Shown: positions 36,210 through 37,998 of the stretch, piece by piece | How the letters are laid out: each line of letters opens with the position of its first letter | Numbering within the stretch: the stretch's first letter is position 1 | Origin: Burkholderiales bacterium | GTDB lineage: Bacteria; Pseudomonadota; Gammaproteobacteria; Burkholderiales; Burkholderiaceae_C | Direction of reading: 5' to 3' | NCBI GenBank assembly: GCA_017307865.1 | Contig: JAFKGE010000047.1 | Location: forward strand, 1 to 39,396 | Length of the DNA stretch: 39,396 nucleotides | Notes under the pieces: model-generated | The model's database searches: none | Told to the model about the DNA's origin: nothing | What the model saw: only the letters and a program-made list of their open reading frames with translations | Translations under genes and position numbers: made by a program

Positions 36210-36638
36210 TCAAAACGGCTTGACCACCACCAGGATGACGGCGGCCAGCAGCCCCAGCACGGGCAGCTCGTTGAACCAGCGAAACCACACGTGGCCGGGC
36301 GCGGCCTGCCCGCGCTCGAAGCGCGCCAGCAGACGCGCGCAGGCCACGTGATAGACGATCAGCAGCGCCACCACCCCCAGCTTGGCGTGCAGCCAGCCGT
36401 TGCCCGGCCCCTGGCCGATGCCGTAGCCCAGCCACAGCCACAGGCCCAGGCCCAGCGCCGGCACGGCCAGCATGGTCATGAAGCGCAGCAGCTTGCGCGC
36501 CATCAACAGCAGGCGCGTGCGCTCGGCCGTCGACTGCGGCGGCACCATGGCCAGGTTGACGAAGATGCGCGGCAGGTAGAACAGGCCCGCGAACCAGCTG
36601 ACCACGAACACGATGTGCAGGGCTTTGATCCACAACAT
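36210..36638 (-). CDS. hemJ: protoporphyrinogen IX oxidase HemJ (CopD/UPF0093 family)
   Basis: A 142-aa four-helix membrane protein that oxidises protoporphyrinogen IX to protoporphyrin IX without oxygen addition to the substrate. Conserved features are His8 in WIKALHIVFVVSWFAGLFYLP and His84/Lys86 in WLHAKLGVVALLIVYH. ATG 36638 gives the exact family N-terminus; an in-frame extension to 36755 through a terminator is not credible. TACACT lies 6 nt upstream. Divergent hemB across 300 bp suggests a small heme locus. Confidence 0.9.
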   Translation of the reverse strand: MLWIKALHIVFVVSWFAGLFYLPRIFVNLAMVPPQSTAERTRLLLMARKLLRFMTMLAVPALGLGLWLWLGYGIGQGPGNGWLHAKLGVVALLIVYHVACARLLARFERGQAAPGHVWFRWFNELPVLGLLAAVILVVVKPF

Positions 36639-36644
36639 GGGCTG

Positions 36645-36650
36645 AGTGTA
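36645..36650 (-). promoter_or_regulatory. -10-like box 6 nt before hemJ
   Basis: TACACT on the minus strand, then CAGCCC and ATG. No ribosome binding site. It lies downstream of the sRNA terminator, so hemJ can be transcribed independently of it. Confidence 0.4.
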
Positions 36651-36700
36651 GGCCGCTGCCGCGCAAGTTCCGCCGAACGGGCGGGCGGACAGGTACCAGT

Positions 36701-36802
36701 AAAAAACCCCAGCCGCGAACGGCTGGGGTCGAAAAGCCTGTCTGCTGTCACACATCAAGGCTCCCGCTCAGGGAGGAAAAGCGGGGGGCGACGAATCGCC
36801 CA
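36701..36802 (-). ncRNA. candidate small RNA with four hairpins, hemJ-hemB intergenic
   Basis: Reading on the minus strand: hairpin 1 GGGCGA-UUCG-UCGCCC (36801-36786) at the predicted 5' end; hairpin 2 CCCGCU and AGCGGG (36785-36780 and 36768-36763) around the 11-nt loop UUUCCUCCCUG, which exposes an anti-Shine-Dalgarno UCCUCCCU; hairpin 3 AGCCU and AGGCU (36762-36758 and 36739-36735) with a long loop; hairpin 4 ACCCCAGCCG-UUCG-CGGCUGGGGU (36729-36706) followed by U residues. Stems are almost back to back, leaving few unpaired bases. It does not code a plausible protein. I do not recognise it as 6S, SRP RNA or another known family. A 5' attenuator of hemJ is the main alternative. Confidence 0.68.
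36706..36729 (-). terminator. Rho-independent terminator of the candidate sRNA
   Basis: A perfect 10-bp stem ACCCCAGCCG / CGGCTGGGGT with a TTCG tetraloop on the minus strand, followed by five T (36705-36701). It points away from hemB and toward hemJ. Confidence 0.9.
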
Positions 36803-36807
36803 AATGA

Positions 36808-36816
36808 ACTATACCA
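36808..36816 (-). promoter_or_regulatory. extended -10 promoter of the candidate sRNA
   Basis: TGG then TATAGT (36813-36808) on the minus strand, an extended -10 element. Transcription would begin near 36801, exactly where hairpin 1 starts. No clear -35 is present; TTGTGC 20 bp upstream is too far. Confidence 0.55.
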
Positions 36817-36829
36817 AAAGTGTTCATGA

Positions 36830-37998
<1,169 letters not shown>

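Follow-up and report, generated by a model that had tools for sequence, protein, structure and literature searches.

The RNA gene between hemJ and hemB

The window, that is, the whole stretch of 39,396 nucleotides that was analysed, carries on its minus strand a predicted small RNA (sRNA) gene of about 101 nt (36701..36801), which lies between a hemJ-like gene located downstream on the same strand (36210..36638; Pfam UPF0093, E 6.2e-39) and a divergent hemB gene located on its 5' side (36941..37951, plus strand; Pfam ALAD, E 8.5e-140). A Rfam scan of the whole window returned a single match above cutoff, namely RF02837 anti-hemB at 36699-36787 on the minus strand, with 62.2 bits for a gathering score of 49.5, and this match spans the full model (1-81 of 81). 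The features that define this family are present: as seen in the alignments and in the fold, a hairpin with the CCUCCCUGAG loop is followed by a third stem and then by the terminator, and the gene adjoins hemB, identified by its ALAD domain, on the opposite strand. Only one RF02837 copy of the window genome scores over the cutoff; the weak matches found elsewhere in this genome (L002-L006, 16-20 bits) were set down as noise. An earlier note on this DNA had called the RNA undescribed and had stated that membership of an existing Rfam family would count against it. Such a match is what the scan returned, and the window sRNA is thus an already catalogued RNA and not a newly found one, though the same match confirms the RNA itself.

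The minus strand folds over 36701-36801 with -53 kcal/mol, as compared with -34.1 +/- 3.6 in 200 shuffles (z -5.2), and four hairpins are distinguished. Hairpin 1 (36786..36801), which is located outside the Rfam model, starts at the predicted 5' end G36801 and reads GGGCGA-UUCG-UCGCCC. Hairpin 2 (36763..36785) bears the conserved UCCUCCCU loop (36770..36777), complementary to the Shine-Dalgarno-like AGGGAGGA, and is followed by hairpin 3 (36735..36762), the inner part of which is of the GUGUGACAGC type. The last one is an intrinsic terminator made of an 11-bp stem and six U (stem-loop 36705..36730, U-run 36701-36706). It is the only terminator-like site in 36400-37200, where a shuffled stretch averages 0.6 such sites, so that the terminator, taken by itself, does not exceed chance expectation; the excess over chance lies in the fold and conservation of the sRNA.

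Upstream of the gene stands an extended -10 promoter element, TGGTATAGT (TG-G-TATAGT; 36808..36816, minus strand), the TATAGT of which is 7 nt away from G36801. A plain sigma-70 scan of 36400-37200 found no promoter at the sRNA, in our opinion because of a poor -35 region. In the record of Burkholderia cenocepacia NCTC13227, which we take to be strain J2315, a start set 105 nt before the T-run falls 7-8 nt past TATGAT, and the four-hairpin layout resembles that of the window. The four hairpins, the extended -10 element and the terminator on the minus strand had been described accurately in the earlier note, as the fold and the reading of the sequence indicate, and the 5' end that it predicted at hairpin 1 agrees with the start spacing of B. 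cenocepacia.

The B. cenocepacia homologue is known as ncS04, a 105-nt RNA with a start determined by dRNA-seq, a 3' end determined by RACE and an MFE of -52.7 (PMC5688073). Its qPCR levels did not change significantly in biofilm, stationary phase, starvation, glucose medium, osmotic stress, low pH or low iron (Table 2 of PMC5688073), whereas its co-purification with Hfq, as well as a neighbour orientation of <- -> <-, is given in Table 4 of PMC4603805. Furthermore, the anti-hemB RNA of B. pseudomallei has been classed as trans-acting (PMC3521395). The window RNA shares with ncS04/anti-hemB the full-length match above the gathering score, the conserved hairpin 2, the terminator, the position on the same side of hemB, the length and the four-hairpin layout. 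It differs from them by the presence of hemJ instead of engB downstream, by its extended -10 promoter, by a terminator loop UUCG devoid of a C-run and by a 5' hairpin that falls outside the Rfam model. The ends of the window gene are placed by analogy with ncS04 and from the terminator; on the same analogy, the window sRNA would be transcribed in its own genome, and the independent, Hfq-associated expression that others have shown for the B. cenocepacia RNA would apply to it as well. In the literature on anti-hemB, we found no function for the RNA.

A CU-rich anti-Shine-Dalgarno stretch combined with a terminator is also encountered in the double-hairpin CU-rich sRNAs (RF02278 toxic sRNA, bdhR1, S17). 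Membership of RF02278 was rejected for the window RNA, which scores 16.7 bits for a cutoff of 50. Over-expression of ncS27 is reported to slow growth (PMC5688073).

Conservation of the fold and of the hairpin 2 loop

Covariation was examined in an alignment, A1, of 25 of the 58 loci of the window's family that have hemB or hemJ in their neighbourhood, these 25 having been selected visually because their 5' hairpin resembles that of the window; the remaining 33 loci mostly show another register of the 5' stem. In A1, 90.3% of the cells pair, as compared with 42-56% when the partners are slid by 1-3 columns. Moreover, 15 of the 28 pairs vary on both sides, which none of 500 shuffles reaches, and the number of further pair types is reached by 12 of 500 shuffles. 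Compensatory changes in relatives had been put forward beforehand as a check on all four stems, and changes on both sides do occur at 5/6 pairs of hairpin 1, 8/11 of the terminator and 2/5 of hairpin 3, but the six pairs of hairpin 2 are invariant in the 25 sequences. In hairpin 3, the outermost A-U pair is unsupported, being unpaired in 15 of the 22 scored sequences. When all 58 loci are considered, one pair of hairpin 2 takes the form U-A in 30 loci and C-G in the other 28, all cells being paired (100%); this two-state pair may track related groups, and further pair types in this count are not above shuffles (487/500 reach them).

The UCCUCCC loop does not vary in any of the 72 loci of the window's family that were examined (72/72), and the family alignments display free variation around it. 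Within the initial 40 nt of the core, CTCCCTGA occurs in 58/58 and 14/14 family loci, in 50/50 loci from elsewhere in the order and in 20/28 loci outside the order, where CCTCCC occurs in 26/28; as the loci used for these counts came from a model that contains the motif, this conservation is partly built in.

Taken together, these data lead us to the following reading, to which we assign a probability of about 0.8: the feature is the anti-hemB copy of the window genome (RF02837; the ncS04 of B. cenocepacia), made from its own promoter as an independent RNA of about 101 nt that stops at the terminator, and its hairpin 2 loop most likely pairs with the Shine-Dalgarno sequences of distant mRNAs with the help of Hfq. 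The identity, structure, covariation, loop conservation, locus and promoter motifs of the sRNA are direct observations. As for the mode of action, the UCCUCCCU exposed by hairpin 2 would most likely pair with G-rich Shine-Dalgarno regions, Hfq would assist the sRNA-mRNA pairing, presumably also in the window organism, and the pairing would block ribosome binding. This occlusion of the ribosome-binding site is proposed on the basis of the loop, of the co-purification of ncS04 with Hfq and of an analogy with sX13, for which both the C-rich loops and the G-rich motifs near the start codons of the target mRNAs were reported to be required for repression (PMC3771888). According to the same source, sX13 does not need Hfq (PMC3771888), and the use of Hfq may therefore not be general among RNAs acting by C-rich loops.

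Potential targets were looked for with seed patterns. The window genome contains 8 sites of the type CAGGGAGG-N4-10-ATG, 3 of which open a frame of at least 100 aa. At the scale of the order, CAGGGAGGAAA-N2-8-ATG occurs in 69 of 300 genomes, with 89 occurrences among the matches listed as against 3 for the reversed pattern, and at least one of these matches (in G091) corresponds to the sRNA's own opposite strand. A search for a shared target, starting from 70 order seed sites that gave 47 ORFs of at least 40 aa, yielded only 4 homologous pairs and no conserved target. A loop that is kept across lineages without a common target gene in the seed search also speaks for a role as a decoy or sponge for a protein or another RNA, instead of an action on the ribosome sites of mRNAs. 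We consider this improbable, since sX13, an sRNA of the polA locus with C-rich loops, represses mRNAs having G-rich motifs near their start codons (PMC3771888), and pairing with mRNAs is the reading that we retain.

Distribution, neighbouring genes and promoters

At E<=0.001, RF02837 matches 208 of the 250 genomes of the window's family, 197 of them above cutoff, and 299 of the 399 genomes of its order, 245 of them above cutoff. Across the class, 106 of 274 sampled genomes give a match at E<=1e-4; 14 are above cutoff, two of those belonging to the window's family. Control genomes match as well (11/14 at E<=1, 3/14 at E<=0.001 and 1/14 at E<=1e-4, none above cutoff), so that matches below the cutoff need other support. 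For the class-level matches, such support is gained from their position beside engB: among the 19 extra-family genomes having a class-level match in the engB search (56 genomes), 13 have a match that points at engB from no more than 400 bp away, while 6 do not, as judged by eye.

Multiple or tandem copies of the sRNA were noticed at L012 (genome G087), L071, L074 and L108. G087 has six RF02837 matches, the maximum per genome (C10:720992-721257, C10:707444, C1:1099291), and pairs of copies separated by about 200 bp are present in G896 and G785. In G806, four tandem copies stand behind polA, and both GGAAC and TCTGAC were recognized by eye upstream of every one of them.

Assignment of the neighbours by tblastn resulted in three arrangements; the loci are mostly the best-scoring ones, and the counts of neighbours and promoters given here are not those of random samples. 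In the window's family, hemB adjoins the sRNA in 56/58 loci and hemJ in 52/58, this group being defined by the presence of hemB or hemJ, while 14 of the 72 family loci have neither gene within the flank examined. In the rest of the order, hemB is found in 42/50 loci, hemJ in 0/50 and engB in 46/50, where it is downstream and convergent in 40, on the 5' side in 5 and overlapping in 1. Outside the order, polA and engB are each found in 18/28 loci, and hemB and hemJ in 0/28. Where engB lies downstream of the RNA outside the family, it points toward the RNA (40/50; 18/28). As a separate observation, an RlmL-like THUMP methyltransferase gene is located upstream, in the same direction, in 11 of the 14 family loci devoid of hemB and hemJ (by eye; L011, L013, L014, L015, L018, L020, L022, L023, L030, L032 and L034), and one of the proteins was confirmed by Pfam.

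The name anti-hemB describes the position of the RNA beside hemB, and the RNA overlaps neither hemB nor hemJ. A main action on hemB or on heme synthesis, at which the Rfam name hints, could account for the divergent hemB adjoining the RNA in most loci of the order (56/58 and 42/50), but 139 bases separate the predicted 5' end of the sRNA from the hemB start codon, without overlap with the gene, and ncS04 showed no significant change in low iron (PMC5688073). The absence of hemB beside the RNA outside the order (0/28, with polA in 18/28) leaves a role in heme synthesis unsupported, and we hold it to be highly doubtful. For the same reasons, and given that hemJ is a neighbour in the window's family only, the link to heme or iron that the earlier note had suggested is not borne out.

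That suggestion had drawn in part on palindromes adjacent to the gene, namely CCCATGAACTTTTCATGGG between the sRNA and hemB (36842-36860) and an ATGAAC...GTTCAT palindrome (36804-36827). No such palindromes were seen in three loci of the same genus, one of which has a lone GTTCAT; among the six loci checked, ATGAAC and GTTCAT co-occur only in the window. The 15-base palindrome CATGAANNNTTCATG occurs at one place only in the window genome, beside the sRNA. The palindromes were not retained.

It is very unlikely that the RNA is a leader or attenuator acting in cis on hemJ, with readthrough, on some signal, of the terminator that separates 36801 from hemJ: although hemJ follows in the same direction in 52/58 family loci of the hemB/hemJ type and begins in the window 61 nt past the RF02837-matched stretch, it is downstream of the same RNA in 0/50 order loci outside the family and 0/28 loci outside the order, the engB gene found downstream elsewhere mostly faces the RNA, which therefore cannot be an engB leader, 14/72 family loci have neither hemB nor hemJ in the flank, and for ncS04 the 3' end was confirmed by RACE and the gene that follows is convergent (PMC5688073, PMC4603805). 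The earlier note's preference for a separate sRNA of some 100 nt, endowed with an anti-Shine-Dalgarno loop, over a hemJ attenuator is supported.

The promoter regions differ between the window's family and the other loci. Upstream of the sRNA, the extended -10 pattern TGnTAnAnT is present in 45/58 family loci of the hemB/hemJ type, window included (shuffle mean 0.86, maximum 3), as against 0/50 other loci of the order and 3/28 outside the order. In these latter two groups, the pattern GGAAC-N16-19-TC occurs in 31/50 (shuffle mean 0.85, maximum 2) and 8/28 loci (mean 0.25, maximum 1), and the pattern GAAC[TC]-N15-17-TC in 23/50 and 18/28 (shuffle means 1.1 and 0.56, maxima 4 and 3). One or the other is found in 38/50 order loci outside the family, 20/28 loci outside the order and 4/58 window-type family loci, these being counts of a union given without shuffles; at 40-62 nt before the core, the counts are 37/50, 19/28 and 3/58, respectively. 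The window locus itself has neither the GGAACTT-type -35 nor the TC-type -10 of such a pattern upstream of the sRNA. Promoters recognized by sigmaE have been described with a -35 element GGAACTTTT and a -10 element GTCAAA (PMC1804206) or, in E. coli, with GGAACTT and TCAAA (PMC2893595), and a different -35 has been reported in Neisseria, so that the motif need not be universal (PMC2893595). The upstream motif found outside the family resembles these promoters, and sigmaE is the factor that it would presumably recruit.

In the window's family, the housekeeping-type extended -10 element indicates that the sRNA is probably expressed constitutively, and the absence of a significant change of ncS04 in any of seven conditions agrees with this. 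This contrast in promoters suggests that an old envelope-stress sRNA was rewired to housekeeping control. If true, the exchange would represent a natural experiment on the passage of an envelope-stress sRNA to constitutive expression. In the Burkholderia group, TATGAT or TATCAT is present upstream in 79/79 readable loci, with a sigmaE pattern in 3/79 and the extended -10 regular expression in 0/79. In Paraburkholderia loci such as L189, L192, L193 and L195, an element of the GAAACTTTT type was seen by eye at about the sigmaE spacing upstream of TATCATA. It is possibly a sigmaE -35 in decay, combined with overlapping -10 elements of the sigma70-like and sigmaE-like kinds, and such loci might represent a midway step in the exchange of promoters.

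Relation to sX13, ErsA and Spot 42

Several known sRNAs have features in common with the anti-hemB RNAs, and the polA-engB neighbourhood of the extra-order loci is the one occupied by ErsA and Spot 42 and, on the polA side only, by sX13. sX13 of Xanthomonadaceae (RF02232) resembles the anti-hemB RNAs by its 115 nt and its hairpins with C-rich loops, but has three C-rich loops, a hypothetical gene on the other side and no dependence on Hfq (PMC3771888). ErsA, or Pseudomon-1 (RF01719), occupies the polA-engB locus and is under control of the envelope-stress sigma22 (PMC8575079); it also has a C-rich terminator loop and, in the one locus found, GAACTT-N17-TCATA upstream (by eye, one base beyond the range of the pattern). 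Spot 42 (RF00021) shares the order polA - sRNA (spf) - yihA (engB) in E. coli MG1655. With the Rfam models, however, RF02232 (gathering score 50) matches neither the window genome at E<=0.001 nor the window RNA at E<=1, and RF01719 (gathering score 50) neither the window genome at E<=1e-4 nor the window RNA at E<=1.

A covariance model, R1, was built from 25 of the 28 loci outside the order (L071, L074 and L175 left out), 22 of the 25 having polA or engB alongside. It contains only 11 pairs and therefore leans on sequence, the variable stems having in our view been aligned poorly by MAFFT, and the extra-order loci had been found with RF02837, so that its match to the window RNA (45.7 bits; 46.1 for B. 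cenocepacia) is not independent evidence. R1 finds two sX13 loci with 26.9 and 24.9 bits (E 1.5e-4 and 4e-4), at the place of sX13 and both beside polA, and gives 18.5 bits (E 0.011) on the one ErsA locus; with Spot 42, taken as a possible sequence relative, it gives no match at E<=1. In a control made of 487 kb of Burkholderia-group DNA (61 of 80 listed loci), it detects the RNA in 61/61 records with at least 43.2 bits, the best other match being at 15.1. Two loci earlier picked as weak anti-hemB matches obtain 12.4 and 13.4 bits, and 3 of the seven engB loci included are matched.

The four G806 copies are recognized by both the anti-hemB model (35.9-41.8 bits) and the sX13 model (28.4-48.3 bits), and two of them by the ErsA model (37.1 and 24.9 bits), all below the cutoffs. 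Of the ten sub-cutoff sX13 matches in the 274 genomes, three fall at anti-hemB places (G806, G718 and G868) and one, L390, between polA and engB; at none of the remaining six is there an anti-hemB match. Against kinship, other models also score on the G806 copies, with up to 38.0 bits for alpha-r14, 34.3 for 6C and 29.5 for a Streptomyces RNA, all sub-cutoff, and C-rich loops on GC-rich stems may have raised the kinship scores by convergence. Furthermore, sX13 and engB are about 69 kb apart in G648, and the two sX13 loci have no sigmaE-like pattern upstream. The authors of the sX13 study noted that sX13 has the polA locus in common with Spot 42 and alpha-r7 but does not resemble them in sequence, and they regarded it as exclusive to Xanthomonadaceae (PMC3771888).

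On balance, we see about even chances that anti-hemB and sX13, and perhaps ErsA too, belong as branches to a single old sRNA lineage of the gammaproteobacteria, the link with sX13 being plausible to likely and that with ErsA only suggestive. In this scenario, the RNA would have been born beside polA and engB as a sigmaE-dependent (envelope-stress) RNA with several C-rich anti-Shine-Dalgarno loops, and a replacement of polA by hemB would have left it with engB. In the window's family, it would have kept hemB as its neighbour, given up the C-rich loops in both hairpin 3 and the terminator and exchanged its stress promoter for a housekeeping extended -10 one. A single RNA would in this way have acquired a new master regulator and new neighbours, the hairpin that pairs with ribosome sites remaining fixed. 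While the Rfam name ties anti-hemB to Burkholderia and sX13 has been described as exclusive to Xanthomonadaceae (PMC3771888), the knowledge acquired on the targets of sX13 and ErsA could, should anti-hemB and sX13 form one lineage, be transferred to the many beta- and gammaproteobacterial genera in which the RNA is present. We found no paper naming both sX13 and ErsA, nor any that joins anti-hemB with any two of ErsA, sX13, Spot 42, polA and engB, in a search that left subscription papers mostly outside, and a published link may exist. As a discovery the window RNA is modest, since it was already catalogued; the change of promoter and neighbour within a member of RF02837 is instructive, and the possible wider lineage merits a proper study.

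Inspection by eye of the extra-order loci L068-L075 and L169-L188 revealed in many of them C-rich loops in hairpins 2 and 3 and in the terminator, as described for sX13; by comparison, the window RNA retains a C-rich loop in hairpin 2 only. Beside engB, L104:2090-2206 (minus strand) and L076:2440-2542 (minus strand) are matched by R1 with 30.4 and 26.3 bits, in the absence of a Rfam anti-hemB match at E<=0.01, and L076 also displays a weak ErsA match of 33.9 bits.
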